Source of the DNA: Eucalyptus grandis
Lineage: Eukaryota; Streptophyta; Magnoliopsida; Myrtales; Myrtaceae
Assembly: GCF_016545825.1 (NCBI RefSeq)
Contig: NC_052614.1
Location: forward strand, 46,007,212 to 46,071,211
Length of the DNA: 64,000 bases
Reading direction: 5' to 3'
In this document: positions 6,060 through 49,400 of the stretch, piece by piece
How the letters are laid out: each line of letters starts with the position of its first letter
Position numbering within the stretch: position 1 is the stretch's first letter
Made by a program: the position numbers and the translations under genes
The notes under the pieces: generated by a model
The model's input: the letters and a program-made list of their open reading frames with translations, nothing else
Databases searched by the model: none
What the model was told of the DNA's origin: nothing

Positions 6060-7090
6060 GGTGAGTCAGGGTGCGCATGGATTTATTTCTGTGCTTTTTT
6101 TTGTTCCTGGAAACAGAAACAAAAAAGTGTTTCCTTAAAAATTTTGAATAAAAGAACGCGTTTGGTAACGTTTGGTCCGGGAATAAAATGAACAGAAACA
6201 CGTTTGGTTAAATTTTATTATTTTTTTGTTTCTTTTAATTTTTAAACATTTTTTATTATTTTTTATTTTTTTCCTTTCTTTTTATTTTTCTTTTTTTCGG
6301 CCGGTCACCGGCCTCCGCGACGGGGCCGACGGCCGGCCCTCGCCCAGCCACCTGGCGAGGCTCGCGGCCCACGGCGAGGCCGAGCCTCGCCGTGGTGGGC
6401 GAGGCTCGCCGCTTGGCGGGCGAGCTCGGGCTCGCCCAGATCCGGCGAGGCCGAAGCGCGGCCCCGGCGAGGCTCGGCTCGCTGGATCTGGGCGAGCTCG
6501 AGCTCGCCCGGCATGGCGAGGCTCGGGCTCGCCGGATGGCGAGCCCGAGCTCGCCCGGCCAAGGCGAGGCTCGGCCTCGCCGGCGCGGGCAACGCCGAGC
6601 CTCGCTTTGGCCGGGCGAGCTCGGGCTCGCCTTTGATCCGGCGAGCCCGAGCCTCGCTGGGGCCGGCGACGCCGGGCGTCGCCCAGCTAAGGCGAGGCTC
6701 GGCCTGCCCCGCGCCGGGCGACGCCGAGCCTCGCCGGGGCCGCGACGCTCGGCTCGCCGGATCCGCGAGGCCGAGCCTCGACGGCCGTCGCCGGCCATAC
6801 GAGGGGCCGGCGACCGGCCAAAGAAAAATAAGAAAAAAAAAGAAGAAAAGAAGAAGAGAAGAAGAAGAGAGAGAAGAGTCGTTTTGTTCTTTTGTTCTTC
6901 CGAGAAGTGTTCCTTTCGGAGAAACAACTTTTTTGTTTTTTTTTTCTGTTCCTATTTCGTTCCGAAAAAAAAAAAAGGAACAAAACGCAACCAAACGCGT
7001 TTCTGTTCCTTTTTTGTTCCCGGGCACACTTTCCGTACAAAAGTGTGCCGGAAACGTTTAGAAACGTTTCCATGCACGCCTCAACCGCCC
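6060..7090. mobile_element. Foldback-type element with inverted arms and GC-rich core
   Basis: The arms are imperfect inverted repeats. The left end starts GGTGAGTCAGGGTGCGCATGG and the reverse complement of the right end starts GGGCGGTTGAGGCGTGCATGG. Both arms go on with AAACAGAAAC, TTTTGTTCC and AACGCGTTTGG-like words, then AT-rich tracts, then the GC-rich core. No target duplication was found at these limits, so the exact ends and the superfamily (MULE-like or another DNA element) are uncertain. ORFs across it are low-complexity artefacts. Confidence 0.55.
6297..6820. repeat. GC-rich palindromic minisatellite-like core (GGCGAGGCTCG family)
   Basis: About 520 bp built from variants of GGCGAGGCTCGG, GCTCGCCGG and GCGAGCTCGGGCTCGCC. 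The words occur in both orientations, so the region can form many short hairpins. It is flanked by AT-rich tracts (poly-T on the left, A/G-rich on the right) and lies inside the foldback element. All six frames are partly open because the base composition avoids stop codons. Arg/Ala/Pro-rich ORFs here are not genes. Confidence 0.75.
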
Positions 7091-13290: not shown

Positions 13291-13701
13291 ACCCTTCTAG
13301 AAGACTTTAGGTAGTTTAAAATATTGGGTCTATGGGCATACGAATTTGTTAGGTTTTCTTTCCAATTAGGCCTTAATTCCTCTTGAATTAAATCAAATTG
13401 ACCCCATTAATTTATGCAACACCTCATCATTCCAATTGGTATTTTTCCTACCAATATAGCCCACTTGCATTCCACTTTCACAATCCCCGCTTTAATTGAA
13501 CGAAAACGGCTCTATTTATCCAAATAATTAAAACCCGAAAATCTGATGTCACAAGATTTATATGTATTATTCATAGCATCATTGTATTTAAATTAAGCTA
13601 ATATCCTTTTATAATTACAGTAGAATAGTATATTAAGGAATTTTTCTTAAATATGATTTAGAATTATTGGTCCTTTAGGAAAAAGAAAGCTCAAGCCTTA
13701 C

Positions 13702-14190
13702 CCTCTATCTTTGAGATTCCATCCTTTGATACTAGCAACCTCCCTCAAAGCCTCCTTCCATCGTTGCACGACATCGCATACAAACTTCTGCTCGTGCTTC
13801 TGCAAAGCGTTATGGTATAGCACAATTTTGAGCTTGACATCATGGGTATCCACGTTGAAGAAGGTTGGCAAGATCATTGCTTTGTTGTCTCTATTTCTCG
13901 AGCAATCCACCATGTATGGAAGGTTGCGAAGACACCGTGTGCTTAATGCATAGTTTCTAGAAAAGATTGTGGATCTCTTGATTGTATCCTCCGATTTGCC
14001 TCCGATGGCTTCACCTTTTTTGATGTCTTCATCATCTCTGAAAATGTGAATCCCAGCTCCATCCATGGAGTGATAGAGATAGTCAGGAAAATCAAGACGA
14101 GTGTCAGGTCCTCTGAAATTCAAGAACACCTCGACATCTCTTCTATCGGTCGTTGACGCTGTTTTTCTGTTGAATGAGTCCCTGCTCTCC
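13702..14190 (-). pseudogene. TNL2 pseudogene, TIR exon
   Basis: Homologous to exon 1 of TNL1, ending at the same donor type (GAGG|GTAAGG). TIR signature FLNFRGPDTRLDF is present. Damage: the ATG of TNL1 is replaced (CTG at the equivalent site, with an in-frame TAG just upstream). About eight residues are missing before VFLNFRG and several before FSRNY. The catalytic motif WCLREL has become RCLRNL, so both the tryptophan and the NADase glutamate are lost. Together with the broken NB-ARC exon at 8811-9539 it is a dead copy. Confidence 0.85.
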
Positions 14191-15030
14191 AGCTAAAGTA
14201 TACTGATGGAGCTTAATAATGAGAAGAGAGATGTTGGAGTACTAACTAATCCATATGATTCTCGTGGATTTATGGAAGAGCTAGAGAAGTCTCCTTCGAT
14301 GCGTTGAAAACTAGGAAGTGGTGGAGAAATTTTACAGTGTCAATCATTCTATAAACTATTGTACTTGATAATATGAGTTTGATTTCCCTTCAAAAAGAAA
14401 CTGAAAAGTTTCCCCCAGGTCACAACCCGACAGGCCATTTGATTAAGAATGCCAACAGTGCACCGACGCACAAAATGCATGACCTCTTCCCTGATTTCAA
14501 TACCCGAAAAACAAATAGATGATATACACTTGGCATCAGGGAATATATATTGTATACTTGTGGTTAACGTCAATCTGCAAAAGCGAGAGGACTGGTCGCC
14601 AGGCAAATATGAGGTGCCCCGTGATGGACAATTGTGAAAGGACTCATCTAGAAACAAGAAACAGATTGCCTTTCTCATTCGGCAAATGGGGATGGCTTAA
14701 CTTGACCAACCAGGACTACTAAATTATAGAGCAAAGAAGCTTGAAGTGGAAGCTCTTAACAATACTTGTATTTTTTAGGTAATCCAAACCCTAACATTGA
14801 TGAAATCTCTGCACCTAACTATTAATACCTAAATTTTGATTAAATATTTATATAGAAAATTGTGAATCGATTTAGCCCTAACAAAAATAGATTTTCCCAC
14901 CATGTAGGCATAAATAAATATTTTACCAAATAAATAAATAAATCCGTGTTTATTATTTCTAGTTTATTACCCTTTTTACATTATTTTCGGATAAATAAAA
15001 ATTTATAAAAAAGAAAAGAAAAAAATTTCA
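14191..15030. other. TNL2 upstream flank, non-coding
   Basis: Positions 14365-14470 repeat the segment found upstream of TNL1 (GAGTTTGATTTCCCTTCAAAA, then CAGGTCACAACCCGACAG). A 109-codon minus-strand ORF at 14349-14678 overlaps this repeat. It has no recognised domain and may be residue of the same unidentified upstream gene. The remainder to 15030 is AT-rich. Confidence 0.45.
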
Positions 15031-20775: not shown

Positions 20776-20875
20776 NNNNNNNNNNNNNNNNNNNNNNNNN
20801 NNNNNNNNNNNNNNNNNNNNNNNNNNNNNNNNNNNNNNNNNNNNNNNNNNNNNNNNNNNNNNNNNNNNNNNNNNN
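20776..20875. other. Assembly gap of exactly 100 N
   Basis: One hundred unresolved bases, a conventional placeholder length for a scaffold join of unknown size. Sequence character changes completely across it: an LTR on the left and a telomere-like array on the right. Confidence 0.98.
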
Positions 20876-23800
20876 GCCTGGGCCTGGGCCCTGGGCCTGG
20901 GCCTGGGCCTGGGCCCTGGGCCTGGGCCTGGGCCTGGGCCTGGGCCTGGGCCTAGGCCTGGGCCTAGGCCTAGGCCTAGGCCTAGGCCTAGGCCTGGGCC
21001 TAGGCCTAGGCCTGGGCCTGGGCCTAGGCCTAGGCCTAGGCCTAGGCCTGGGCCTGGGCCTGGGCCTGGGCCTGGGCCTAGGCCCTGGGCCTGGGCCTAG
21101 GCCTGGCCCTGGGCCTAGGCCTGGGCCTGGGCCCTGGGCCTGGGCCCTGGGCCTGGGCCTAGGCCTGGGCCTGGGCCTGGGCCTGGGCCTGGGCCTAGGC
21201 CTGGGCCTAGGCCTGGGCCTAGGCCTGGGCCTGGGCCTGGGCCCTGGGCCTGGGCCTAGGCCTGGGCCTGGGCCTGGGCCTAGGCCTAGGCCTGAGGCCT
21301 AGGCCCTAGGCCTAGGCCTGGGCCTGGCCTAAGGCCTGGGAGGCCTGGGCCTGGGCCTGGCCTGGGCCTGGGCCTGGGCCCCCTGGGCCCTGGGCCTAGG
21401 CCTAGGCCTAGGCCTAGGCCTAGGCCTGGGCCTGGGCCTGGGCCTAGGCCCTGGGCCTAGGCCTAGGCCCTAGGCCTAGGCCCTGGGCCTAGGCCTGGGC
21501 CCTAGGCCTGGGCCTGGCCTAGGCCTAGGCCTGGGCCTGGGCCTGGGCCTGGGCCTGGGCCTGGGCCCTGGGCCTGGCCCTGGGCCTGGGCCTGGGCCCT
21601 AGGCCCTAGGCCTGGGCCTGGGCCTGGGCCTGGGCCTGGGCCTGGGCCTGGGCCTAGGCCTAGGCCTAGGCCTGGGCCTGGGCCTGGGCCTGGGCCTGGG
21701 CCCTGGGCCTAGGCCTGGGCCTGGGCCTAGGCCTGGGCCCTAGGCCTGGGCCTAGGCCTAGGCCTAGGCCTGGGCCTGGGCCTGGGCCTGGGCCTAGGCC
21801 TAGGCCTAGGCCTAGGCCTAGGCCTGGGCCTGGGCCCTGGGCCTAGGCCTGGGCCTAGGCCTGGGCCTGGGCCTAGGCCTGGGCCTGGGCCTGGGCCTGG
21901 CCCTGGGCCTGGGCCTAGGCCTGGGCCTGGGCCTGGGCCCTGGGCCCTGGGCCTGGGCCTGGGCCTGGGCCTAGGCCTGGGCCTGGGCCTGGGCCTGGGC
22001 CTGGGCCTGGGCCCTGGGCCTAGGCCTAGGCCTAGGCCTGGGCCTAGGCCTAGGCCTAGGCCTAGGCCTAGGCCCTGGGCCTAGGCCTGGGCCTAGGCCT
22101 GGGCCTGGGCCTGGGCCTGGGCCTGGGCCTGGGCCTGGGCCCTGGCCTAGGCCTGGGCCTAGGCCTGGGCCTGGGCCTAGGCCTGGGCCTGGGCCTAGGC
22201 CTGGGCCTGGGCCTGGGCCTAGGCCTAGGCCTAGGCCTAGGCCTAGGCCTGGGCCTGGGCCTAGGCCTAGGCCTAGGCCCTAGGCCTAGGCCTAGGCCCT
22301 GGGCCTGGGCCTGGGCCTAGGCCTGGGCCTGGGCCTGGGCCTGGGCCTGGGCCTGGGCCTAGGCCTGGGCCTGGGCCTGGGCCTGGGCCTAGGCCTGGGC
22401 CTGGGCCTGGGCCTGGGCCTGGGCCTGGGCCTAGGCCTAGGCCTAGGCCTAGGCCTAGGCCTAGGCCTAGGCCTAGGCCTAGGCCCTGGCCTAGGCCTAG
22501 GCCCTAGGCCTAGGCCTAGGCCTAGGCCTGGGCCTAGGCCCTGGGCCTGGGCCTGGGCCTGGGCCTGGGCCCTGGGCCTGGGCCTGGGCCTGGGCCTGGG
22601 CCTGGGCCCTGGGCCTAGGCCTGGGCCTGGGCCTGGGCCTAGGCCTGGGCCTGGGCCCTGGGCCCTGGGCCTGGGCCTAGGCCTGGGCCTGGGCCTGGGC
22701 CTGGGCCTGGGCCTGGGAGGCCTGGGCCTGGGCCTGGGCCCTGGGCCTAGGCCTAGGCCTAGGCCCTGGGCCTGGGCCTGGGCCTGGGCCTGGGCCTGGG
22801 CCTGGGCCTAGGCCCTGGGCCTGGGCCTGGCCCTGGGCCTGGGCCCTGGGCCTGGGCCTAGGCCTGGGCCTGGGCCTGGGCCTAGGCCTAGGCCTAGGCC
22901 TGGGCCTAGGCCTGGGCCTGGGCCCTGGGCCTAGGCCTGGGCCTGGGCCTAGGCCTGGGCCTAGGCCTAGGCCTGGGCCTAGGCCTGGGCCCTGGGCCTA
23001 GGCCTGGGCCCTAGGCCTGGGCCTGGGCCTGGGCCTGGGCCTGGGCCTGGGCCTGGGCCCTGGGCCTAGGCCTGGCCCTGGGCCTGGGCCTGGGCCTGGG
23101 CCTGGGCCCTGGGCCTGGGCCTGGGCCTGGGCCCTGGGCCTGGGCCCCTGGGCCTGGGCCCTGGGCCTGGGCCCTGGGCCCTGGGCCTGGGCCTGGGCCT
23201 GGGCCTGGGCCTGGGCCTGGGCCTAGGCCTAGGCCTAGGCCTGGGCCTGGGCCTAGGCCTGGGCCTGGGCCTGGGCCTGGGCCTGGGCCTGGGCCTGGGC
23301 CTGGGCCTGGGCCCTGGGCCTGGGCCTGGGCCTGGGCCTGGGCCCTGGGCCTGGGCCTGGCCCTGGGCCCTGGGCCTGGGCCTAGGCCTGGGCCTAGGCC
23401 TAGGCCTGGGCCTGGGCCCTGGGCCTGGGCCTGGGCCTGCCTAGGCCCTAGGCCTAGGCCTGGGCCTGGGCCTGGGCCTAGGCCTAGGCCTAGGCCTGGG
23501 CCTGGGCCTAGGCCTGGGCCTAGGGGCCTGGGCCTGGGCCCTGGGCCTGGGCCTGGGCCTAGGCCTGGGCCTAGGCCTAGGCCTAGGCCTAGGCCCTGGG
23601 CCTGGGCCTGGGCCTGGGCCTGGGCCTGGGCCCTGGGCCTGGGCCCTGGGCCCTAGGCCCTAGGCCTGGGCCTGGGCCTAGGCCTGGGCCTGGGCCTGGG
23701 CCTGGGCCTGGGCCTGGGCCTGGGCCTGGGCCTGGGCCCTGGGCCTAGGCCTGGGCCTGGGCCTGGGCCTGGGCCTGGGCCTGGGCCTGGGCCTGGGCCC

Positions 23801-26800
23801 TGGGCCTAGGCCTGGGCCTAGGCCTGGGCCCTGGGCCCTAGGCCCTGGGCCTGGGCCTAGGCCCTGGCCTAGGCCCTAGGCCTAGGCCCTGGGCCTGGGC
23901 CTGGGCCTAGGCCTGGGCCTAGGCCTGGGCCTGGCCCTGGGCCTGGGCCTGGGCCTGGGCCTGGGCCTGGGCCTGGGCCTAGGCCTGGGCCTGGGCCTGG
24001 GCCTGGGCCTGGGCCTGGGCCTGGGCCTGGGCCTGGGCCTGGGCCTGGGCCTGGGCCTGGGCCTAGGCCTGGGCCTGGGCCTAGGGGCCTAGGCCTGGGC
24101 CTGGGCCTAGGCCTGGGCCTAGGCCTGGGCCTGGGCCTGGGCCTGGGCCTGGGCCTGGGCCTGGGCCTGGGCCTGGGCCTGGGCCTGGGCCTGGGCCTGG
24201 GCCTGGGCCTGGGCCCTGGGCCTGGGCCTGGGCCTAGGCCTAGGCCTAGGCCCTGGGCCTAGGCCTAGGCCTAGGCCTAGGCCCTAGGCCTGGGCCTAGG
24301 CCTAGGCCTAGGCCTGGGCCTGGCCCTGGGCCTAGGCCTGGGCCTGGGCCTGGGCCTGGGCCCTGGGCCTGGGCCTGGGCCTGGGCCCTGGGCCCTGGGC
24401 CTGGGCCCTGGGCCTGGGCCTAGGGGCCCTGGGCCTGGCCCTGGGCCCTGGGCCTGGGCCTAGGCCTGGGCCTAGGCCTGGGCCTGGGCCTAGGCCTGGG
24501 CCTAGGCCTAGGCCCCTGGGCCTAGGCCTAGGCCTGGGCCCTGGGCCTGGGCCTGGGCCCTGGGCCTGGGCCTGGGCCTGGGCCTAGGCCCTGGGCCTGG
24601 GCCTGGGCCTGGGCCTGGGCCCTGGGCCTGGGCCTGGGCCTGGGCCTGGGCCTGGGCCTGGGCCTGGGCCTAGGCCTAGGCCTAGGCCTAGGCCTAGGCC
24701 TAGGCCTAGGCCTAGGCCCTGGGCCTGGGCCTAGGCCTGGGCCTGGGCCTGGGCCTGGGCCTGGGCCTGGGCCTGGGCCCTGGGCCTGGGCCTGGGCCTG
24801 GGCCTGGGCCTGGGCCCTGGGCCTGGGCCTGGGCCTGGGCCTGGGCCTGGGCCTGGGCCTGGGCCTAGGCCTAGGCCTGGGCCTAGGCCCTGGGCCCTAG
24901 GCCCTAGGCCTGGGCCCTGGGCCTGGGCCTGGGCCTGGGCCCTGGGCCTGGGCCTGGGCCTGGGCCTGGGCCTAGGCCTAGGCCTAGGCCTAGGCCTAGG
25001 CCTGGGCCCTGGGCCCTAGGCCTAGGCCTGGGCCTAGGCCTGGGCCTAGGCCTAGGCCTAGGCCTAGGCCTAGGCCTGGGCCTGGGCCCTGGGCCTGGGC
25101 CTGGGCCTGGGCCTGGGCCTGGGCCCTGGGCCTAGGCCTAGGCCTGGGCCTGGGCCCTAGGCCTAGGCCTGGGCCTGGGCCTGGGCCTGGGCCCTGGGCC
25201 TGGGCCTGGGCCTGGGCCTGGGCCCTAGGCCTGGGCCTGGGCCTGGGCCTAGGCCTGGGCCTGGGCCTGGGCCCTGGGCTAGGCTGGGCCTGGGCCCTGG
25301 GCCTGGGCCCTGCCCTAGGCCTGGGCCTGGGCCTGGGCCTAGGCCTAGGCCTGGGCCTAGGCCTGGGCCCTGGGCCTAGGCCTAGGCCTAGGCCTAGGCC
25401 TGGGCCTAGGCCTGGGCCCTGGGCCTAGGCCTGGCCTAGGCCTAGGCCTGGGCCCTGGGCCTAGGCCTGGGCCTAGGCCTGGGCCTGGGCCTGGGCCTGG
25501 GCCCTGGGCCCTGGGCCTGGGCCTGGGCCTGGGCCTGGGCCTGGGCCTGGGCCTGGGCCTGGGCCTGGGCCCTGGGCCTGGGCCTGGGCCCTGGGCCTGG
25601 GCCTAGGCCTGGGCCTGGGCCTGGGCCTAGGCCTGGGCCTGGGCCCTGGGCCTGGGCCCTAGGCCTGGGCCTGGGCCCTGGGCCTGGGCCTGGGCCCTGG
25701 GCCTGGGCCTGGGCCCTGGGCCTGGGCCTGGGCCCCTGGGCCTGGGCCTGGGCCTGGGCCTGGGCCCTGGGCCTGGGCCTGGGCCTGGGCCTGGGCCTGG
25801 GCCTGGGCCTGGGCCTGGGCCTAGGCCTAGGGCCTGGGCCTGGGCCCTGGGCCTAGGCCTGGGCCTAGGCCTGGGCCTAGGCCTAGGCCTGGGCCTGGGC
25901 CTGGGCCTGGGCCTGGGCCTAGGCCTGGGCCTAGGCCTAGGCCTAGGCCTGGGCCTGGGCCTGGGCCTAGGCCTGGGCCTGGGCCTGGGCCTGGGCCTAG
26001 GCCTGGGCCTGGGCCTGGGCCTGGGCCTGGGCCTGGGCCTGGGCCTGGGCCTGGGCCTGGGCCTGGGCCTGGGCCTGGGCCTGGGCCTGGGCCTGGGCCT
26101 GGGCCTGGGCCTGGGCCTAGGCCTGGGCCTGGGCCTGGGCCTGGGCCTGGGCCTGGGCCTGGGCCTGGGCCTGGGCCTGGGCCTGGGCCCCTGGGCCTGG
26201 GCCTGGGCCTAGGCCTGGGCCTGGGCCTGGGCCTGGGCCTGGGCCTGGGCCTGGGCCTGGGCCTGGGCCTGGGCCTGGGCCTGGGCCTGGGCCTGGGCCT
26301 GGGCCTAGGCCTAGGCCCTAGGCCTAGGCCTGGGCCTAGGCCTAGGCCTAGGCCTAGGCCTAGGCCTAGGCCTGGGCCTGAGGCCTGGGCCTGGGCCTGG
26401 GCCCTGGGCCTGGGCCTGGGCCTGGGCCTGGGCCCTGGGCCTGGGCCTGGGCCCTGGGCCTGGGCCTGGGCCCTGGGCCCTGGGCCTGGGCCTGGGCCTG
26501 GGCCTAGGCCTAGGCCTAGGCCTAGGCCTAGGCCTAGGCCTAGGCCTAGGCCTAGGCCTAGGCCTAGGCCTAGGCCTAGGCCCTGGGCCTAGGCCTGGGC
26601 CTGGGCCTAGGCCTAGGCCTAGGCCCTAGGCCTGGGCCTGGGCCTAGGCCTGGGCCTGGGCCTGGAGGCCTGGGCCTGGGCCTGGGCCTGGGCCTGGGCC
26701 TAGGCCTAGGCCCTGGGCCTAGGCCTAGGCCTGGGCCTAGGCCTAGGCCTAGGCCTAGGCCTAGGCCTGGGCCTGGGCCTGGGCCTGGGCCTGGGCCTGG

Positions 26801-29800
26801 GCCTGGGCCTGGGCCCTGGGCCTGGGCCTGGGCCCTGGGCCTGGGCCCTGGGCCTGGGCCTGGGCCTGGGCCTGGGCCTGGGCCTGGGCCTGGGCCTGGG
26901 CCTGGGCCTGGGCCTGGGCCTGGGCCTAGGCCTGGGCCTAGGCCTAGGCCTAAGGCCTAGGCCTAGGCCTAGGCCTAAGGCCTGGGCCTAGGCCCTGGGC
27001 CTGGGCCTGGGCCTGGGCCCTGGGCCTGGGCCTGGGCCTGGGCCTGGGCCTGGGCCTGGGCCTGGGCCTAGGCCCTAGGCCTGGGCCCTGGGCCCTGGGC
27101 CTGAGGCCTGGGCCTGGGCCTGGGCCCTGGGCCTGGGCCAGGCCTAGGCCTAGGCCTAGGGGCCTAGGCCTAGGCCTGGGCCCTAGGCCTAGGCCTGGGC
27201 CTGGGCCTGGGCCCTAGGCCCTGGGCCTAGGCCTGGGCCCTGGGCCTGGGCCTGGGCCCTGGGCCTGGGCCTGGGCCTGGGCCTGGGCCTGGGCCTGGGC
27301 CTGGGCCTGGGCCTGGGCCTGGGCCTGGGCCTGGGCCTAGGCCTAGGCCTAGGCCTAGGCCTAGGCCTAGGCCCTAGGCCTAGGCCTAGGCCTAGGCCTA
27401 GGCCTAGGCCTGGGCTGGGCCTGAGGCCTGGGCCCTGGGCCTGGGCCTGGGCCCTGGGCCTGGGCCTGGGCCTGGGCCCTGGGCCTGGGCCTGGGCCTGG
27501 GCCTGGGCCTGGCCCTGGGCCCTGGAGGCCTGGGCCTAGGCCTGGGCCTGGGCCCTGGGCCTGGGCCTGGGCCTGGGCCTGGGCCCTGGGCCTGGGCCCT
27601 GGGCCCTGGGCCCTGGGCCTGGGCCTGGGCCTGGGCCTGGGCCTAGGCCTGGGCCCTGGGCCTGGGCCTGGGCCTGGGCCTGGGCCTGGGCCTGGGCCTG
27701 GGCCTGGGCCTGGGCCTGGGCCTGGGCCTAGGCCTAGGCCTAGGCCTGGGCCTAGGCCCTGGGCCTGGGCCTAGGCCTGGGCCTGGGCCTGGGCCTGAGG
27801 CCTGGGCCTGGGCCTGGGCCTAGGCCTGGGCCTGGGCCTGGGCCTGGGCCTAGGCCTAGGCCTGGGCCTAGGCCTAGGCCTAGGCCTAGGCCTAGGCCTA
27901 GGCCCTGAGGCCTGGGCCTGGGCCTGGGCCTGGGCCCTGGGCCTGGGCCTGGGCCTGGGCCTGGGCCTGGGCCTAGGCCTAGGCCTGGGCCTGGGCCCTG
28001 GGCCCTAGGCCTGGGCCCTGGGCCTGGGCCCTGGGCCTGGGCCTGGGCCTAGGCCCTGGGCCTGGGCCTAGGCCTGGGCCTGGGCCTGGGCCCTGGGCCC
28101 TGGGCCTGGGCCCTGGGCCTGGGCCTGGGCCTGGGCCTGGGCCTGGGCCTAGGCCTAGGCCTGGGCCTGGGCCTGGGCCTGGGCCTGGGCCTGGGCCTGG
28201 GCCTGGGCCTAGGCCTAGGCCCTGGGCCTAGGCCTAGGCCTAGGCCTAGGCCTAGGCCTAGGCCTAGGCCTAGGCCCCTGGGCCCTAGGCCTGGCCCTAG
28301 GCCTGGGCCTAGGCCTGGGCCTGGGCCCTGGGCCTGGGCCTGGGCCTGGGCCTGGGCCTGGGCCTGGGCCTGGGCCTGGGCCCTAGGCCTGGGCCTAGGC
28401 CTAGGCCTAGGCCTGGGCCCTGGGCCTGGGCCTAGGCCCTGGGCCTAGGCCCTGGGCCTAGGCCTAGGCCTGGGCCTGGGCCTAGGCCCTGGGCCTGGGC
28501 CTAGGCCTGGGCCTGGGCCCTAGGCCTAGGCCTAGGCCTAGGCCTAGGCCTGGGCCTAGGCCCTGGGCCTGGGCCTAGGCCTAGGCCTAGGCCTAGGCCC
28601 TGGGCCTGGGCCTAGGCCTGGGCCTGGGCCTGGGCCTGGGCCTGGGCCTGGGCCTAGGCCTAGGCCTAGGCCTAGGCCCTGGGCCTAGGCCTAGGCCTAG
28701 GCCTAGGCCTAGGCCTAGGCCTAGGCCTAGGCCTAGGCCTAGGCCTGGGCCTGGGCCCTGGGCCTGGGCCTGGGCCTGGGCCCTGGGCCTAGGCCTGGGC
28801 CCTGGGCCTGGGCCCTGGGCCTGGGCCCTGGGCCTGGGCCTGGGCCCTGGGCCTGGGCCCCTGGGCCCTGGGCCTAGGCCTAGGCCTAGGCCTAGGCCTA
28901 GGCCCTGGGCCTAGGCCCTGGGCCTAGGCCTAGGCCTAGGCCTGGGCCTGGCCCTGGGCCCTGGGCCTGGGCCTGGGCCCTGGGCCTGGGCCTGGGCCTG
29001 GGCCTGGGCCCTGGGCCTAGGCCTGGGCCCTGGGCCTGGGCCCTGGGCCCTGGGCCTGGGCCTGGGCCTGGGCCTGGGCCTGGGCCTGGGCCCTGGGCCT
29101 GGGCCCTGGGCCTGGGCCTAGGCCTAGGCCTAGGCCTGGGCCTAGGCCTGGGCCTGGGCCCTGGGCCCTGGGCCTAGGCCTGGGCCTGGGCCTGGGCCCT
29201 GGGCCTGGGCCTGGGCCTGGGCCTGGGCCCTGGGCCCTGGGCCTGGGCCTGGGCCTGGGCCCTAGGCCCTGGGCCTGGGCCTGGGCCCTGCCTAGGCCTA
29301 GGCCCTGGGCCTAGGCCTGGGCCTAGGCCTAGGCCTAGGCCTGGGCCCTAGGCCCTGGGCCCTGGGCCTGGGCCTGGGCCTGGGCCTGGGCCCTGGGCCT
29401 GGGCCTGGGCCTGGGCCTGGGCCTGGGCCTGGGCCTGGGCCTGGGCCCTGGGCCTGGGCCTAGGCCCTGGGCCTGGGCCTGGGCCTGGGCCTAGGCCTGG
29501 GCCTGGGCCTGGGCCCTAGGCCTAGGCCAGGCCCTGGGCCTGGGCCTGGGCCTGGGCCTGGGCCTGGGCCCTGGGCCTGGGCCTGGGCCCCTGGGCCTAG
29601 GCCTAGGCCCTGGGCCTAGGCCTGGGCCTGGCCTAGGCCTAGGCCTGGGCCTGGGCCTGGGCCTGGGCCTAGGCCTGGGCCCTAGGCCTGGGCCTGGGCC
29701 TGGGCCCTGGGCCTGGGCCTGGGCCTGGGCCCTGGGCCTAGGCCTAGGCCTAGGCCTGGGCCTGGCCTAGGCCTGGGCCTGGGCCTGGGCCTAGGCCTAG

Positions 29801-30070
29801 GCCTGGGCCTGGGCCTGGGCCTAGGCCTGGGCCTGGGGCCTGGGCCTAGGCCTGGGCCCTAGGCCTAGGCCTAGGCCTGGGCCCTGGCCCTAGGCCTAGG
29901 CCTAGGCCTAGGCCTAGGCCTAGGCCTGGGCCTGGGCCTGGGCCTGGGCCTAGGCCTGGGCCTAGGCCTGGGCCTGGGGCCTGGGCCTGGGCCTGGGCCT
30001 GGGCCCTAGGCCTGGCCTGGGCCTGGGCCTGGCCCTGGGCCTGGGCCTGGGCCTGGGCCTAAGGCCTGGG
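20876..30070. repeat. 9.2-kb telomere-like hexamer/heptamer array (CCTGGG, CCTAGG, CCCTGGG, CCCTAGG)
   Basis: Almost every base belongs to units CC(C)TGGG or CC(C)TAGG. Rare variants such as CCTAAGG or CCTGAGG occur. The units match the plant telomere heptamer CCCTAAA with its A run changed to GGG or AGG and often one C lost. The array joins clean CCCTAAA repeats without a break at about 30071. Nanopore basecallers are known to miscall C-rich telomere strands this way (CCCTAA as CCCTGG), so a miscalled telomere is the leading explanation. A true derived satellite remains possible. ORFs giving Gly-Leu or Ala-Trp repeats are artefacts. Confidence 0.95.
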
Positions 30071-30179
30071 CCTAAACCCTAAACCCCTAAACCCTAAACC
30101 CTAAACCCTAAACCCTAAACCCTAAACCCTAAACCTAAACCTAAACCTAAACCCTAAACCCTAAACCCTAAACCCTAAA
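30071..30179. repeat. Plant telomere repeat tract (CCCTAAA)n
   Basis: About 15 units of CCCTAAA, a few as CCCCTAAA or CCTAAA, at the right end of the hexamer array. The C-rich strand reads 5' to 3' rightward, the orientation of the left end of a chromosome whose body lies to the right. It passes directly into LTR sequence (TTATCGACCACGG). Confidence 0.95.
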
Positions 30180-31762
30180 TTATCGACCACGGATAATTGA
30201 ACCCTCGTAATTTTATGACAACCAAGAGTCGTTTACGATTCATAGATCCACTAATGTTGATAAAAAATTATCCACCATGGGTCAAACTTGCTAAAATTCC
30301 TAAAAGCTACTCAATAGGTTAGGTCTTATTAAAATCACTTTCGGTGGATTTTAACCATGATATTGAATTCGGTTACGGGAATTGAACGTGTGAACATGTC
30401 ACGATTCATTTAAAAGACATCGTCCCATCTTTCGGAGAATTTTTGTCAAGTCCAAAATTTTTAGGAAAAATTGATTTCGGACAAAAAGAAAATGAAAGTG
30501 AAATTCGGATGGGCTGATTAAATGGATTATTTGGCTGCCAAAATGGTTTATTTTGTGAGAAATTTTGACTAATTCTCCATTGGATGGCCACAGGACTTAT
30601 TTGGCATGAAGACTTTAAGGGTTTTGCAAGGATTATTTAGATATTTCCCTAGGCTTTCTATTGGTTAGTTCTTTGACTTCCATTTTCCCTCTCTCTCTCG
30701 CTCCCACTTCTCCCTCTCCCTCCATGCATGCAAGCCCTTGTAGAACAGTCCTTCTTCATTTCTTCATTTTAAATTCCTTCACTTCCTCTTTCATTACTAT
30801 TGCAGCATCCCCATCAGAACACCAACAGCCCTCACGCCAGCACAACCAACCACCAACTCCACCCAGCAGCACCACCACCACCACATCACTACTCGACTAG
30901 TAGCTCGATCGAATTGAACCTCCCATCCTTAGTTGAGAGCCTTGTAGGGCCAACCCCACCTCCTCCAAGCCTCCACTGGAGACACGGTTGTCTCAGGTTC
31001 TCACAGCCGTCGAGTTGCCGTCACCGTGAGCCCACCGCCGTCCTAATCCGGTGAGTTAACTCCCTAATCCTTCATTAGGTTGTTAATTGCACTAGGGGTT
31101 AGATTAGTGTAATGATGATTAGTTAGTTAATCCTAGGTTAGTGTAACTAGCTTGGTTAGTGTAATTAGCTTGGTCTGGTTAGTTGGTTTTGTTATGTTAG
31201 CCTACCTTAGTTAGGTTAGTTTACTTAGGTTAGGTTAATTAACCATGGTTAAGTTAGTTAACCATGGCTAGGTTAATTAAGTTGGATTAGCTTAATTAAT
31301 CGCAATTTATTTAAATAATCGTAATTAGCGTAATTAGTGACGGATTAGCGATTTTGTAGAATTGTATGCTCATTCTTGTGGATGAATTTATACGTGAATT
31401 TAATGGCTTATATGTGCTATGATGTGCAATTGAGTGATTGGTGGTAGTTATTAATTTTTAGTAGAAAACTTAGTGTTATGGACTTTTAAATAGAAAATTA
31501 CTAGGTGTCGATTTTTTATGCCAATATTTATGTTCTATATAAAACCATGGAGTTTTAAATTAGGAGCGTACCAAGTTTGACGGTTTGCTTTAAATGCATG
31601 ACCCCGAATGATTATTTTTACCGAGATTTTTACTACGAAGAAAATTAGCAAAATTCATTATTTGAAAATGAGGTATTTGAATGCAAAGCATGGTGATCTT
31701 AGCTGAATATGTGCATGTATGGTCACTATCGGAACCAATCACCCAATGAGAGTTGGGGAGGC
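30180..31762 (+). repeat. Family-1 LTR, 5'-truncated at the telomere repeat, first segment
   Basis: Begins inside the family-1 LTR, equivalent to about 19650 in the copy left of the gap (AAGAGTCG, then CCACCATGGGTCAA, then TCCTAAAAGCTACTCAATA). It continues through the CT-rich block and GGTGAGTTAACTCCCTAATC. It breaks at 31762, where an LTR element inserted, and resumes at 38667. Overlap with 19650-20775 shows the two are separate copies and not halves of one LTR. ORFs at 30661-31054 are not considered genes. Confidence 0.75.
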
Positions 31763-34188
31763 TGTGACGTCCCAGGGCGTCACGTACTAAGCACAAGCGG
31801 AATTATAATTATTATTATCATCTTGCCAAACTTGTAACCTCCTTTACCATTGAAGGTTAGCATGTATAACATAAATTATTTAAAATCTCAAGTTTATGTT
31901 ATGAGGTATCTCTATACCGATAGGTATCCCAAACTTCCGGGGGCATCACCAGTATCTCTGTACTGATGGGTTCATTCACTCACTTATGCACATGTTTCAC
32001 ACCACCACACCTTTGATTAATCCATTTATCGTATGCAAAAGAAAAGACTCCAAAGTATCCAACTATATATATTACTCTCCTGAACCTAGCACACGTGCGT
32101 GTCCAAATTATAAGACAAAACCCATTATGTCATGTCCCATTCCATGGCGAACAGATATTTACCCCATAATCAAGCACTATGCACCGCACTCATTGCACTC
32201 ACATGACACTATATGCACTTATATATCTCAAATAAGATGTGAGACTTACTTTTACACAATTAACATCTATTATGAGGTTTATTATGCTCTATGTGCATCA
32301 CAAAAGCCTGATGTAAAAGACACAACATCTAATATATGTTCTCGGGTCCAGACAGTTTGCTAGCTAAATGTACAGTTTTGGTTTCGGATACAAAAGGCCT
32401 ATCAATTCTTGTCAAAATACTACAACATTTTAGTATGTTATATTTAAGACATATACTGAAAATTCCCATGAAGAAACTTGAGTCTAATTCTCAATGTATT
32501 AAGAGTAACAGTTGCAATAATCTTTACTAGCACCATGTATCGACGTCTAGATTCTTTATCTACAAAGAAAATTGTTTCATTAGCCAACTCTTATCCATTT
32601 AATCTCAAATTTTGACACTTCATTCCCTAAGATGTGTTCTACAATTTTCATTAAGGATTGGAAGTCCATTTCTAACTAGTTAAATACAGAAAATTCGTAT
32701 AATCAATAAAGGTCAAACCGTTTCTCAAAAAACAGTTTACTGGTTTTTACCAAATTCACTTCTATCTCTATGTTTTTATATTCATAAGGTTATAGCTACG
32801 TGTATAACTCGATCTTATAGATGTTCTATCATGTAGAATCGTTTCTTTCTTATTTCCATCAACATACATAAAGAAAATATATACAAACAGAAGACTCCAT
32901 AACTGTTTTCACCTAGAACAGAATAGGTATACACGATTTTCTCACTCCTAGCCCGACCAAACAATTTATTTTCCACAAGTCTCTTCTACAACACTTCATT
33001 ACTTAATCACAGCAACTAAGAGTAACTTCAGCAAGTTTTCTCAACAAAGAATCCTTCCGTAGCTCGGCTCAAGTATATATCCACACTTCAACTCACACAT
33101 CACCACATGCACCTCATTTCTTCACTCGGCAAACATCTCTTCACTTTCCTCAATCAAAACACCCAACTATCATCAGGCTTTCGAAATATGCAAGGCTCAA
33201 AAACAACATGCAATGGCTTCTACCTTCAATCTAACACTTACTAAGCTTAGATTAACCCCAAAACAACTACAAACCAAATCCTTCACTGTTTGCTTAGACC
33301 CGCAAGCTTTCTTGACAAAACAATGGATAACTTTTAATTTAGAGTTGTATCTTTCCTTACCTTGTTCAGCTATTAGACAACACAAAGATGCTTGAAGATC
33401 AACACCAAAATTTTGCATGCAAGAGGAGGAAGGTTGCTGGTTTGCTTCTGGTTTCACCGCTCGACCGAGAGAAAACAGAAAAGAAGAAGATGAAGATGGG
33501 TTTCGGTCTTGAAGAGAGAGAGAGGGTTACGAAAATTAAGAGGGAAATAGGTCTACAAGGCTAATCCCTAGGCTGGACTAATGATGAAATTTGCTAATGA
33601 TTATGTCTCTTGAGTTTACCTGTCTCGGTTTGTAGGAATGAAAATGTCGGTGTCGAGTGCAAGGAGAAACAAGAGAGAGAGATGTTGTGGCCTCCAAGTT
33701 TGTTGTCTCAAATTCAATTTTTTTTCTACTTGATTTCAATTCTTTTATAATTATACAAATTCATGACATATATAACATATCGACTAGTCAATGTTAGTCT
33801 ATAAAGAATTCATCACAAGAAATGCTAACGTTAGAAAGTGAGATTAGCATTATAAACATTAATAAAATTATCATAACTATAATCTATAAAATAAAATCAT
33901 CCGGGCCTAAATATTCATCTCTGGCCCAACAGGCTTAATCTATAACAATCCGGCCCACTAAACTAAATTTACAATCTAATAATTCTGAACCTTGGCCCGC
34001 TTCAAGCCAAGTTCAAGCCCATAATCTCTCATTAGGCTTCTCAAGTCCAATTCGTGTGGCACACTTATTTCTCAAGCCCACACATTTCTCACGAACCATC
34101 GGGTTCACTTTCTAGCCCAATCTAATTAATCTAAGTTCCTAATGATCTAATTACACTAATGAAGGTCGGTGAAATTTGGGATGTCACA
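31763..34188 (-). repeat. 3' LTR of the Tekay-like element (2426 bp)
   Basis: Complete LTR. The minus strand starts TGTGACATCCCAAATTTCACC next to the polypurine tract and ends GGGACGTCACA at the target duplication. Positions 32025-34188 are nearly identical to 36497-38666. Confidence 0.9.
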
Positions 34189-35406: not shown

Positions 35407-36496
35407 TCATTCCATTCCACCAAAAAAATATTGACGAAGGTTCCTATACATCTTTGTACTTCCTAGGTGAATACTATAACTACTACAATGAGCTTTAGTC
35501 ATAATTTCTCTCTTCAATTCGTCATTACTAGGCACACAAAATCGTCCATGAAATTTAACTATCCCATCATTCGAGATTTGAAAATCCAACTTCTTTCCCT
35601 TTAGAGCTTTATCTCGAATTTTCAATATTTTAGGATCTGATTGTTGTAAGGTCTTAATGCGCTGTATAACTTCAGGTTCCACTCTCAGTGCAACTATCAT
35701 AGCTATAGATTCACTCACTTCAACCTTGAATTCAGAATTTGAAATTGCTTCCCATAGATTCCATTCTTTAACCATCGTATTGGCTACTCTCATGGCCGAG
35801 TTCCTACTAAGTGCATCTGCCACTTTGTTAACTTTTCCTGGGTGATACAGAATTTCACAGTCATAGTCCTTGAGTAATTCTATCCATCTCCTCTGCCTCA
35901 TGTTCAATTCCTTTTGAGAGAATAGGTACTTTAAACTCTTGTGATCCGTAAAAATTTCAAATCTTTCTCCAAAAAGATAGTGCCTCCAAATCTTTAAAGC
36001 AAAAACAATGGCAGCTAGCTCTAAGTCATGAGTAGGGTAATTCAATTAATGTGGTTTCAATTGTCTCGACGCATACGCTATAACTTTCCCATGTTGCATA
36101 AGAACACAACCTAATCCTTTATGAGAAGCATTACTATACACCACAAAACCTCCAGATCCTATGGGCATTGTTAACACTAGTGCCGTCATCAATCTCCTCT
36201 TGAGTTCGTGGAAACTTTTCTCACATTCCTCTAACCAATAAAATTTTGAATTCTTCCGAGTCAATTGTGTTAATAGTCCTGCAATTCGAGAAAATCCTTC
36301 TACAAATCTTCGGTAATATCCAGCTAAACCTATAAAACTTCATATTTCTGTCACTATCGATGGTCTAGGCCAATCAATCACAGCCTCAACTTTAACTGGA
36401 TCCACTGATATTCCTTCACCAGTCACCACATGTCTTAAAAATGTCACTTGATCCAACCAAAATTCACATTTACTAAATTTAGCATATAGACAAAAC
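35407..36496 (-). pseudogene. RT 3' part and RNase H of the Tekay-like element
   Basis: Begins abruptly at the LTR junction with RT residues [18 protein letters not shown], and FIGLAGYYRRFVEGFS. The RT-RNase H connection follows (KSFHELKRRL), then RNase H ([48 protein letters not shown]) and the integrase N-terminal linker ([15 protein letters not shown]). A stop lies in the RT part (TEI* before SFIGLAGYY) and another before [12 protein letters not shown]. The RT active-site half with YVDD is absent. Confidence 0.85.
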
Positions 36497-38666
36497 CATT
36501 TATCGTATGCAAAAGAAAAGACTCCAAAGTATCTAACTATATATATTACTCTCCTGAACCTAGCACACGTGCGTGTCCAAATTATAAGACAAAACCCATT
36601 ATGTCATGTCCCATTCCATGGCGAACAGATATTTACCCCATAATCAAGCACTATGCACCGCACTCATTGCACTCACATGACACTATATGCACTTATATAT
36701 CTCAAATAAGATGTGAGACTTACTTTTACACAACTAACATCTATTATGAGGTTTATTAGGCTCTATGTGCATCATAAAAGCCTGATGTAAAAGACACAAC
36801 ATCTAATATATGTTCTCGGGTCAAGACACTTTGCTAGTTAAATGTACAGTTTCGGTTTCGGATACAAAAGGCCTATCAATTCTTGTCAAAATACTACCAC
36901 ATTTTAGTATGTTATATTTAAGACATATACTGACAATTCCCGTGAAGAAACTTAAGTCTAATTCTCACTGTATTAAGAGTAACAGTTGCCATAATCTTTA
37001 CTAGCACCCTGTATCGACGTCCAGATTCTTTATCTACAAAGAAAATTGTTTTACTAGCCAAATCTAATCAATTTAATCTCAAATTTTGACACTTCATTCC
37101 CTAATATGTGTTCTACAATTTTCATTAAGGATTGTAAGTCCAATTCTAACTAGTTAAATACAGAAAATTCGTAAAATCAATAAAGGTCAAACCGTTTCTC
37201 ACAAAACAGTTTACTGGTTTTTACCAAAATTCACTTCTATCTCTATGTTTTTATATTCATATGGTTATAGCTACGTGTATAACTCAATATTATAGATGTT
37301 CTATCATGTAGAATGGTTTCTTTCTTATTTCCATCAACATACATAAAGAAAATATATACAAACAGAAGACTCCATAACCGTTTTCACCTAGAATAGAATA
37401 GGTATACACGATTTTTCTCACTCCTAGCCCGACCAAACCATTTATTTTTCCACAAGTCTCTTCTACAACACTTCATTACTTAATCACAGCAACTAAGAGT
37501 AACTTCAGCAAGTTTTCTCAACAAAGAATCCTTTCGCAGCTCGGCTCAAGTATATATCCACACTTCAACTCACACATCACCACATTCACCTCATTTCTTC
37601 ACTCGGCAAACATCTCTTCACTTTGCTCAATCAAAACAGCCAACTCTCATCAAGTTTTTGAAATATGCAAGGCTCAAAAACAACATGCAATGGCTTCTAC
37701 CTTCAATCTAACACTTACTAAGCTTAGATTAACCACAAAACGGCAACTACAAACTAAATCCTTCACTGTTTGGTTAGACCCACAAGCTTTCTTGACAAAA
37801 CAATGGATAACTATTAATTTAGAGTTGTATCTTTCCTTACCTTGTTCAGCTATTAGACAACACAAAGATGCTTGAAGATCAACACCAAAATTTCACATGC
37901 AAGAGAAGGAAGGTTGCTGGTTTGCTTCTGGTTTCACCACTCGACCGAGAGAAAACAGAAAAGAAGAAGATGAAGATGGGTTTCGGTCTTGAAGAGAGAG
38001 AGAGGGTTACGAAACTTAAGAGGGAAATAGGTCTACAAGGCTAATCCCTAGGCTAGACTAATGATGAAATTTGCTAATGATTATGTCTCTTGAGTTTGCA
38101 TGTCTCGGTTTGTGGGAATGAAACCGTGGGTGTCGAGTCCAAGGAGAAACGAGAGAGAGAGATGTCAGGGCGTCCAAGGTTGTTGTCTCAAATTCAATTT
38201 TTTCTACTTGATTTCAATTCTTTTATAATTATACAAAGTCATGACATATTTAACATATCGACTAGTCAATGTTAGTCTAGAAAGAATTCATCACAAGAAA
38301 TGCTAATGTTAGAAATTGATATTAGCATTATAAACATTAATAAAATTATCATAACAATAATCTATAAAATAAAATCACTCGGGCCTAAATATTCATCTTT
38401 GGCCCAACAGGCTTAATCTATAACAATCGGGCCCACAAAACTAAATTTACAATCTAATAATTCCAAACCTTGGCCCACTTCAAGCCAAGTTCAAGCCCAT
38501 AATCTCTCATTAGGCTTCTCAAGTCCAATTCGTGTGGCCTACTTATTTCTCAAGCCCACACATTTCTCACGATCCATCGGGTTCACTTTCTGGCCCAATC
38601 TAATTAATCTAAGTTCCTAATGATCTAATTACACTAATGAAGGTCAGTGAAATTTGGGATGTCACA
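36497..38666 (-). repeat. 5' LTR of the Tekay-like element, truncated (2170 bp)
   Basis: Collinear with 32025-34188 of the other LTR at high identity. About 262 bp corresponding to 31763-32024, which on the minus strand is the 3' end next to the primer site, are missing. The break is fused straight to RT sequence. Confidence 0.9.
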
Positions 38667-40916: not shown

Positions 40917-40922
40917 AAGTTA

Positions 40923-41611
40923 TGTGAATCATTGCGAAATGATCGTTCTACGAATGCTCAGATGATGCGAATTGTGAACCTTGATCTACAATCAAACCTA
41001 TGATTGGCAACCTCAGTATGAATGTGACATGTTGATGAACACATGTCAACCAACCAACGTTATAGACGCCAAAAGTGAAAGAATTTGCTATCTCGCTCGA
41101 TAAGTCAAATCGATCATCATAAGGGAACTTTGATAAGGTCAAGTCCTCAAAAAAAAACAATTGAAGAGAACCTCTCAATATGTTTTCATTCCTCAAAAAT
41201 AAAATCTATCTCCCAAAGAAATTCGGCAAATCCTTAATATAGGCTTTCTAGCCGCCACACAAACCCTAAACCAACCCTAAAAATCTAATGCGTCGTATTG
41301 TAGAATATGCCTAAATAAGAAGATAATTTTTTTTTTTTTACTTGGTCAAATATTTGGTGACTAGATAATCAAATTATGCCAAGATTTCCAATATTCATCA
41401 AAATTTGATTCAAGGTCATCTCCATGCCAAATATTACACCAAGATTTGTAAGATTCTTCAAAATTTGATCCTAAGTCATCTCCACGCCAAAGATCACAAA
41501 CCATGATGCTAGTAGCTTGCCTAAATTGCTTGGCCCGCGCTCGAGTAATCGAACCAGTAGGAATAAACAATGGGTCCCTAGCACCTCCTCCTTGATATGG
41601 CTGGATGTCCA
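40923..41611 (-). repeat. 3' LTR of gypsy element E
   Basis: Matches 58715-59401 along its length (for example GATCGTTCTACGAA, GGCAACCTCAGTATGAA, CAACCAACCAACGTTA). It contains the last codons of the pol frame. Confidence 0.88.
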
Positions 41612-46404: not shown

Positions 46405-49400
46405 TGTCGCGACCCGATCTCGCCGCCCCTAGAGAAGTGTCCAAGGAAGGGAAATGTCGGATTTAGGGGTACTTTGATCTCGAGAGTTCCTTCACGAGAT
46501 CACGAGCTCTCCCAAGCTCATACCCCGCGTGACAGCGAATTTATTTATATGATCTAGGTATTTAACAACCTAAAAAATATACAGGAGTCGCCACTAGCCT
46601 CAACTTTGGGGGTCGGCTAGAAACCCAATCGAGGGTCGGGAGTGTTCCCTCGATTCCTACGCAACCAGATATCTAGGTTCGGGGACTTGGGTTACGCTAA
46701 TATTGCTATTAGCGCCCTTTCGGTACCTAAACAGTATGTTGTGTTTTTCCTAACATGTCCATGCGTTTCTTTTTACATTTTTTAGGATCATCAATTCCTA
46801 GACTAAGTGATCATGCGTGGTTGATCATTTTCATTCTATTCTATTTCTGAGAAATGAAAGGAAATCAAACAATGAAAATGAAAATTAAATTGCAAGATAT
46901 GAAGTAAACAATCAAGAAAAGCAGTAAATCTATCATGCAATTCTAAAAATATAAAAGAGAAAACACAATTAAGAAAAATGAGGGAAAAAGGGAAAACCCG
47001 CAACTCGTCGGGTTTTATACAACAAATGGAGCCCGAGACATATGTCGGGAAAATGGGTATTACATGAAAATGGTCGGAATGGACATCGACCTCCACCATC
47101 TTCACGCCTTCTCCATCTTCAAGGTCCTAATCTAAACCTAATCTAAGAAATTTATGACTAGGTGCATACAAGTGAAAGAAACAATCATCACAACTAAGAT
47201 CAAAACAATTGGGGTAGAAGCCTTGTATGATTGGCACTGAGAAAAAAGCACAGAAATCAAGCATTTTATAAAGAGCAACTTTCATGAATGGAATCTCCTG
47301 AGACGTATCGAGTTCAAGTAAAGTCAAATTCATGGCCGAAAAGCAACAATTGCTAAAGCATGCAAATCAATCATAAGCAAATCAAAGAATGATGCATGAT
47401 AACTGATTTGTTAAGCCACCTAATCAATGCATGAAAATCATGAAATTTGAACATGACGTAGGGTTAAATGTGAAGAAAAAGTTTGATTTAGACATTCAAC
47501 CCTAAATCTGTATGCAAAAGGCCACACAAATCCATTAACATTGATATGTGACTTGTCATTAGAAGCAAAATGCATGACAATTTCAGTTGTGGTATATCGA
47601 CTTGATGCATGGTTTTTACATGGTCAATGATCTTAAAATGAGGCATGCCATACATCATTGCAAAGCTTATGATATGCTCTAAGTATGTCTAGAAAGCATC
47701 AAGCATCAAATATGCTCTTAAGGAACTTGATTGAAGACATTTTCATAGAAACGCAATCAATTAAAATCACAGCAGGGATTGCACAAAACATGGATGATAT
47801 TCATTGAAATGAAGACATAAAGAAAATCTATGAATGTCCAAGTATATAGAAGAAAATTTCCCGATCATCTATCATGAGACATCGAAGTCCTACTTTGCTC
47901 ACAAAAATCTATATGAAAAACATAAACGAAACAGGGCAAAAATCCAACATTACAGATTGCAGCAACTCAAACGTGACTTTATGGAAGCCATTGACCTTGC
48001 TAACGATGATCACTTGATTCAAGCTATACCTTGTTAGAAATTTTATGAAATTTCCAATGACTCATGAAAGATTCAACTCCAGCAAAGCATGTTCACTAAC
48101 TCAAATTTGAGCACACGCCTCAGGTCTCAAACATGACAGATTCTGGACCGAAATTTGGACATGTGAAAACCATATCACATGAGATTCAATCAAGGAATTC
48201 TACAGCTCATTGGAAAGATATTCAAACCATCTTCGACTTTCATGAAGACTTCGAACACAGAAAAACACAATAATCAGCTCATATCAAGTTATTTGCACAG
48301 AAGGTCAGACCAGCGAAAGAAACATAACACATCAGCAGATTAGTGCTCTTTGCAAGAAGCATCAGGCATGGCAAATGATGGCCAAATTGCACATATAATA
48401 TGTCTATGGAAAGCTTGAGAAGTCTATTACAAATCTCTAGAAGACATTAAGTCCAAATAACATCATCTACCAGCTCAGTCCAGTTGAAACAGAAAGTGAC
48501 ATATCAGGCATACGAAATCGCGACACATCAACTATTCCATTTCAATACTAACAGCAGCTAGCCACAGGAAAAAAAAAAAAAACAAACAGCATATCACAAG
48601 CAGCTTTAAGAAGACAACGTTCTCAGATTCAACATGCATATTTTTTCTAAAGAGACTCCAAGAGCCAAGATATATCAATCGGCTAAAACAATCTACACAA
48701 GAACAAGCAAAACAGCAAAACAGAACCAAGCTAAGACATAATTCATCTAATCTATATTTAATCCACAACTTCCAGCATGCAGTTGGAATGGTAACAGAGC
48801 ATACGAGGCTGCAAATTGTGATTGTTTGATGACAAATTGCCATGAAATTGAAGCCATATTTTCTCAGAAGCATGAATGAGTCTACTTGATCAAAATGGCA
48901 TCAATCCATAACCAAACTAGCTTCAAGTTGGAATCAAATGCACACCCAAACATGGTCAGCATACATGGGTCGATTTTCAGTAAAATTTGACTTATCCTTG
49001 ACATAATATTTTTTCCACATGCTTCAATCATAAGCAGCAATTATAGCATACTGATATTCATATATGGCGTGTGTCATGGAAAGTCAAATTTGCATTTGCA
49101 ATAAATAGCAAGACTCGAGCGCAGTAAAGACTATGAACATGCATTTAGTTTAGGCATTTCATCGAACGCTAAATAGGCGCAAGAAAAACGGGGAGCACCG
49201 AGACTGAGCTTGAGTAGGGATTTAAAAACAATCCCAGCATGCACATGGATAAAATCGAAACTCACATGAACAGGACAACGGCGACCTGGTCTAATGATTC
49301 CAAAACTAAGCACAAAGAAGAGACAAAATAAGGCAATCGGTCAAGGGTTCCTACCTGGCTCGCGGCACCAGACAGGAGATAAGATCCGAGAAATCGTCCA

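Follow-up and report, generated by a model that had tools for sequence, protein, structure and literature searches.

The window, by which we mean the whole stretch of 64,000 nucleotides that was analysed, lies on pseudochromosome C3 of Eucalyptus grandis. It contains a single run of N, a 100-N assembly gap at 20776–20875. Beyond this gap is a TIR-NLR gene (1246–4094, minus strand) that matches P0001, a 649-residue E. grandis protein named 'RPV1-like'; the gene has three exons in the window, and exact 15-residue words arranged in three blocks cover residues 1–645 of the 649. The same side of the gap holds a second TIR fragment (13698–14192, minus strand) and, in AT-rich surroundings, a GC-rich tandem repeat with units of ~25 and ~128 bases (6381–6784). 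On the other side, a long repeat array starts at the gap edge (20876–30070, plus strand) and is followed by a short tract of clean telomere units (30071–30179, plus strand) and then by non-telomeric DNA of the same contig (30180–64000). The distal end of the array adjoins the gap and is therefore the end of a contig; RaGOO pads joins with 100 N.

The inner flank carries LTR retrotransposon fragments, as judged from its sequence, from Pfam matches to RT_RNaseH, integrase, RVT_1 and gag, and from spaced direct repeats. Two direct repeats at 32019–34019 and 36493–38497, which are 95–98% alike and ~4,475 bases apart, surround RT_RNaseH and integrase fragments; they are probably the two LTRs of a single Gypsy-type element, which would lie ~2 kb inward of the telomere. 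Two further pairs lie deeper in the flank, one at 46484–47284 and 51742–52535 (~5,255 bases apart, 95–96% alike) and one at 40922–41535 and 58714–59326 (~17,792 bases apart, 88–90% alike). At 31136–31299, ~1 kb inward of the telomere, there are tandem repeats of 18–19 bases that contain GTTAGGTTA and GGTTAGTG.

The array at 20876–30070 is a single tandem array. A single G stands at its start; the rest, parsed as a C run followed by a non-C run, comprises 1,493 units, of which 1,432 belong to four main forms, CCTGGG (820), CCTAGG (397), CCCTGGG (175) and CCCTAGG (40), with the other 61 made up of rarer forms. The clean tract at 30071–30179 parses into 16 units, namely 11 CCCTAAA, four CCTAAA and one CCCCTAAA. 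TRF delimits a period-6 array at 20876–30073 and a period-7 CCTAAAC array at 30071–30179, so that the parse and TRF together confirm the initial annotation's description of a 9.2-kb array running into CCCTAAA at 30071. That annotation also took each unit to be the plant telomere heptamer with its A run changed to GGG or AGG and often with one C missing, and this description fits the 1,443 units out of 1,493 that have the form C+T[AG]3. Within these 1,443 units, the first position of the original AAA is G in 1005 and A in 438, and the second and third positions are G in all 1443. The T is retained in 1,491 of the 1,493 units, and the C run has a length of two in 1,259 units and of three in 223. 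No AAA occurs in any of the 1,493 parsed units of 20876–30070 as written. The A-to-G change falls within the A run of the C-rich strand, and this strand reads toward the chromosome interior, as it does at the five chromosome tips described below. The AGGCCT and CCTAGG palindromes in which the array is rich are inherent in the unit sequence.

We searched the whole genome (616,521,434 bases in 36 contigs) for exact matches to a 30-base probe, (CCTGGG)2(CCTAGG)2CCTGGG, a search that detects only arrays holding that word. The probe has 97 exact matches, 10 on the forward and 87 on the reverse strand, and its reversed control has none in the whole genome. The matches group into 11 clusters, a lower bound given what the probe can detect, and a 21.9-kb cluster on C1 may comprise more than one array. 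Five clusters are terminal, at the right ends of C1, C4, C7 and C11 and at the left end of C9. Three are near-terminal, 85–301 kb from a scaffold end, on C2, C8 and C9. The remaining three lie deep inside scaffolds, on C1 at 29.3 Mb and on C3 at 46.03 Mb (the window) and 49.36 Mb. Among the near-terminal clusters, those of C8 and of the right side of C9 match the nearer end in polarity, and the cluster near the left end of C2 has inverted polarity, as expected of a flipped contig.

The outer 10 kb was read at all 22 ends of C1–C11; three of the 22 have N at the tip, leaving 19 readable. The repeat reaches the last base at five of the 19 readable tips, with the C-rich strand pointing inward in all five, and neither the repeat nor clean CCCTAAA is present at the other 14. 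Clean CCCTAAA forms the tip at none of the 19 readable pseudochromosome tips, and the clean units that adjoin an array lie on its inner side (30071–30179 in the window, and likewise in L028 and L051). At C9, C4 and C1, the outer 10 kb consists wholly of the repeat, with blocks of clean CCTAAA within the C1 stretch; the C11 array ends ~9 kb in from the tip. Since the 22 ends at 10 kb each make up 0.036% of the genome, the presence of the repeat at five of 19 tips shows that it marks chromosome ends.

True and miscalled units occur together at the junction in the window and in three other pieces, the arrays of C2 (L028) and C11 (L051) and the piece L041. Inward of the C2 array lies a stretch in which single units of CCTAGG, CCTGGG, CCTAAGG and CCCTAAA take turns; this gives way to a proximal tract in which true-looking CCCTCAA variants stand, cleanly called, among CCCTAAA units, and finally to unique DNA. 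At C11 the array leads into CCCTAAA interspersed with CCCTAGA, likewise a true-looking variant. Such mixing of single units would be expected if the signal admitted two readings, with the basecaller slipping from one to the other until variant or unique sequence held it steady.

We infer that the assembly that contains the window (ASM1654582v1) is the one described in a 2024 paper, which reports 615.89 Mb scaffolded with a scaffold N50 of 58.49 Mb (PMC11146599). It was sequenced on MinION R9.4.1 flow cells and basecalled with Guppy 3.3.0–4.0.15, assembled with Canu, polished with Racon and with Pilon using 150-bp reads, and scaffolded with RaGOO, the scaffolds being ordered by homology to an older reference and not by Hi-C (PMC11146599). 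An error of this technology was described by Tan et al. (2022, PMC9414165), who reported that C-strand CCCTAA is read as CCCTGG across platforms and basecallers, and that HiFi reads from the same cells lack CCCTGG. The current profiles of the two repeats had a correlation of 0.978, and 69.5% of C-strand reads were more than 90% wrong; similar telomere errors were reported for A. thaliana, and repeats of different length were also confused (PMC9414165). The E. grandis array resembles this miscall in that an A run becomes a G run on the C-rich strand, with the same technology and pore generation, and in that it occurs at chromosome ends mixed with true repeats. It differs from the miscall of Tan et al. 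in having a heptamer as its true unit, in the usual loss of one C and in the mixture of AGG with GGG, and 9.2 kb of the error persisted in a finished scaffold. The array also resembles Arabidopsis-type (CCCTAAA)n telomeres in the clean units beside it and in the tip position and polarity of the same repeat elsewhere in the assembly, but differs from them in that 20876–30070 is written without AAA.

Taken together, these data lead us to conclude, with a probability of roughly 95%, that the array is an E. grandis CCCTAAA/TTTAGGG chromosome end that was miscalled in R9.4.1 C-strand reads, its contig having then been scaffolded inside C3. The telomere is almost certainly real and its repeat sequence as written almost certainly is not; the contig is very probably misplaced in the C3 scaffold. 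The first of two readings offered by the initial annotation, a telomere miscalled from nanopore data, is thereby supported by the R9.4.1/Guppy assembly, by the five of 19 tips in telomeric polarity and by the unit-level mixing with CCCTAAA, and also by the published CCCTAA-to-CCCTGG error and by two matters discussed below, a period of ~33 units and a HiFi assembly of the species. In mechanistic terms, the true end would be the Arabidopsis-type CCCTAAA/TTTAGGG telomere of an ordinary chromosome. In R9.4.1 C-strand reads its A run would be written GGG or AGG and one C usually lost, a miscall that would arise from the near-identical current of the two repeats. A Guppy chunk of 2,000 samples (~225 bases) that held only repeat would have nothing to scale against, so that the false reading would hold and drift to give a ~33-unit period. 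The consensus would have retained the error across 9.2 kb. The innermost 109 bp may owe their correct calls to a steadying effect of unique sequence on the basecaller or to 150-bp polishing reads that extend about that far. Reference-guided scaffolding would then have placed the contig inside C3 with its telomere facing the 100-N gap.

The choice between CCTAGG and CCTGGG waxes and wanes along several arrays (the window, L044, L051 and L038) with a period of ~33 units. Averaged over five arrays, the A/G autocorrelation has maxima near lags 31–34, 67–70, 97–100 and 130–133. We scanned periods of 12–80 units in each array against shuffles of 10-unit blocks, 300 for each. The best period exceeds the shuffles in the window (36 units, p 0.003), C4 (32.5, p 0.013) and C11 (31.5, p 0.01), and does not in C9 left (34.5, p 0.39) and C1 (62.5, p 0.33), so that single-array periods range over 31.5–36 units where they are clear. 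A contrast measured at the second to fourth multiples of the period, with bins chosen after the autocorrelation curves had been viewed, is 0.048 for the A/G state over seven arrays, versus 0.000 (sd 0.006) in block shuffles, none of 1,000 of which is as high. Taken singly, four of the seven arrays (window, C9 left, C4 and C11) show it clearly, and the other three do not reach significance (p 0.16 for C1, 0.46 for C7 and 0.14 for the C2 array). The same period is absent over the seven arrays from C-run length (p 0.22), odd units (p 0.72) and unit length (p 0.44); unit length in C9 left alone gives p 0.034.

Nanopore current is sampled at 4 kHz, and at 450 bases per second 33 heptamers (231 bases) correspond to 2,053 samples. 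A chunk of 2,000 samples at this nominal speed holds ~225 bases, or 32 heptamers. The default chunk of Guppy is 2,000 samples (PMC13144457, PMC8892189), a setting from which the E. grandis run may differ, as in one study in which Guppy 3.6 was run with chunks of 1,000 (PMC8575027). Chunks that contain only repeat have been reported to be wrongly scaled and to yield false units, an effect that is gone with large chunks (2026, PMC13144457). The E. grandis array is like these miscalls of long CTG tracts in that false units would come from chunks holding only repeat; it is unlike them in that the repeat is another one and that the excerpted text of that paper does not mention a period. A literature search on periodic chunk effects in tandem repeats returned no title on that subject. 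The ~33-unit period is probably a trace of basecaller chunks: it is loose in phase, comes with no copied sequence and is common to different chromosome ends, and therefore suits a machine better than biology. For a chunk period to survive in a consensus, one read or a small number of reads would have to dominate there.

The second reading of the initial annotation was a genuine variant telomere or telomere-derived satellite, that is, a real (CCTGGG/CCTAGG)n repeat that would have arisen by strand exchange or slippage and would lie distal to CCCTAAA. A precedent comes from Chenopodium, where nanopore reads contain a mixture of (C)CCTGGG and (C)CCTAGG that was held to be real and was accompanied by an image of CCTGGG FISH, with signal in pericentromeric heterochromatin (2023, PMC10521516). 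The genuine version of the repeat can therefore not be called undescribed, as the initial annotation would have had it, both unit pairs having been reported in that paper. Nanopore reads give the same four units for the E. grandis array as for these 'derivative telomere repeats', and CCTGGG is the dominant one in both. The Chenopodium repeats are, however, claimed to be interstitial and to run opposite to the direction of TTTAGGG at four junctions (PMC10521516), whereas the E. grandis array and the CCCTAAA tract that it runs into share one direction; we would expect fold-back reads to yield such opposite-direction junctions. The main argument of the Chenopodium paper for TTTAAAA is that this repeat is missing from two libraries, and the paper's table lists CCTGGG in seven of seven, which by its own criterion would make CCTGGG a method error (PMC10521516).

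Other evidence from E. grandis can be set on either side. A real repeat would accord with the six of 11 clusters that are not at scaffold tips, and with the correlated A/G state of neighbouring units. In the window array the latter has a lag-1 correlation of 0.31 that fades by lag 7, the C-run length has a lag-1 correlation of -0.004 and a slight excess when lags 1–6 are taken together (p 0.026, 2,000 permutations), and odd units are weakly correlated when summed over lags 1–6 (p 0.017); the calls are therefore not independent noise. The C-run lag-1 correlation lies within 0.02 of zero in seven of eight array pieces and reaches 0.13 in C7, and across the eight pieces the share of units with A varies from 0.08 to 0.43 and the share with at least three C from 0.07 to 0.26. 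Repeated-word and autocorrelation statistics, applied to the window and across arrays, revealed no higher-order or block-duplicated structure. The longest repeated word in the window array has 18 units, versus 17.6 (sd 2.1) in 200 second-order surrogates. Sharing among five arrays is no greater than in 40 surrogates for eight of the 10 pairs, and the two exceptional pairs share words of 26 and 16 units that consist mostly of one unit. A genuine satellite with higher-order structure is not supported by these statistics, the A/G state being nonetheless locally correlated and modulated.

Against a real repeat also stand the nature of the changes, which are those of the known nanopore error (PMC9414165), the match of the period to the basecaller chunk, and the lack, runs of a single unit apart, of any higher-order structure or of blocks shared between arrays. 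Moreover, it would have to replace the telomere at five of 19 readable tips, whereas nearly all HiFi ends are of the CCCTAAA type: in the HiFi assembly E. grandis v4.0, which is of a different tree and so bears indirectly on this one, telomeres were found at 21 of 22 and 20 of 22 ends per haplotype by (CCCTAAA)n and (CCCGAAA)n (PMC12239627). We thus regard a genuine variant telomere or satellite as highly improbable. The fuller picture that it implies, in which some E. grandis ends and interior sites carry kilobases of real, palindrome-rich (CCTGGG/CCTAGG)n distal to CCCTAAA, with a real ~33-unit modulation, is in our judgment scarcely credible.

A different alternative accepts the miscall but takes the tract to be truly interstitial, a remnant of an old fusion or an interstitial telomere repeat in C3, with the scaffold order right. 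The scaffold end closest to the window cluster is 26.4 Mb away, and three of the 11 clusters are deep within scaffolds, as this explanation would have it. But the contig stops within the array at a 100-N gap, the scaffolding relied on homology to an older reference without Hi-C (PMC11146599), the array is homogeneous over at least 9 kb, and elsewhere in the assembly this repeat makes up literal chromosome tips. A truly interstitial tract therefore appears unlikely, if far less so than a genuine CCTGGG repeat, and a miscalled chromosome end in a misplaced contig remains the preferred reading.

If a miscalled chromosome end is accepted, at least 11 telomere clusters in the assembly of a major plantation tree are written in false sequence, and three of these lie deep within scaffolds. 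The miscalled clusters would escape telomere finders that seek CCCTAAA, a non-existent satellite may enter the repeat annotation, and doubt is cast on the claim of a real CCTGGG repeat in Chenopodium. If the ~33-unit period derives from chunks, it would allow such artefacts to be recognised from the assembly alone, without reads. Were the repeat real after all, views on the composition of plant chromosome ends would change.

Searches of other genomes, which have little bearing on plants, gave the following. A 24-base probe for the repeat has no matches in viral contigs, in which a CCCTAAA probe finds 17 stretches, and another 24-base probe has one match when one genome per bacterial or archaeal species is searched. 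This match was rejected as an array, as it consists of few units in non-repetitive DNA.

Clean CCCTAAA repeats are also present elsewhere in the E. grandis assembly. Deep inside C2 there is a row of 357 perfect CCCTAAA copies (L029 4552–7050, C2:23209551 onward), in an assembly whose other telomeres are miscalled. Genome-wide, (CCCTAAA)4 has 2,556 matches on the forward strand versus 88 on the reverse, the opposite imbalance to that of the miscalled probe (10 versus 87).
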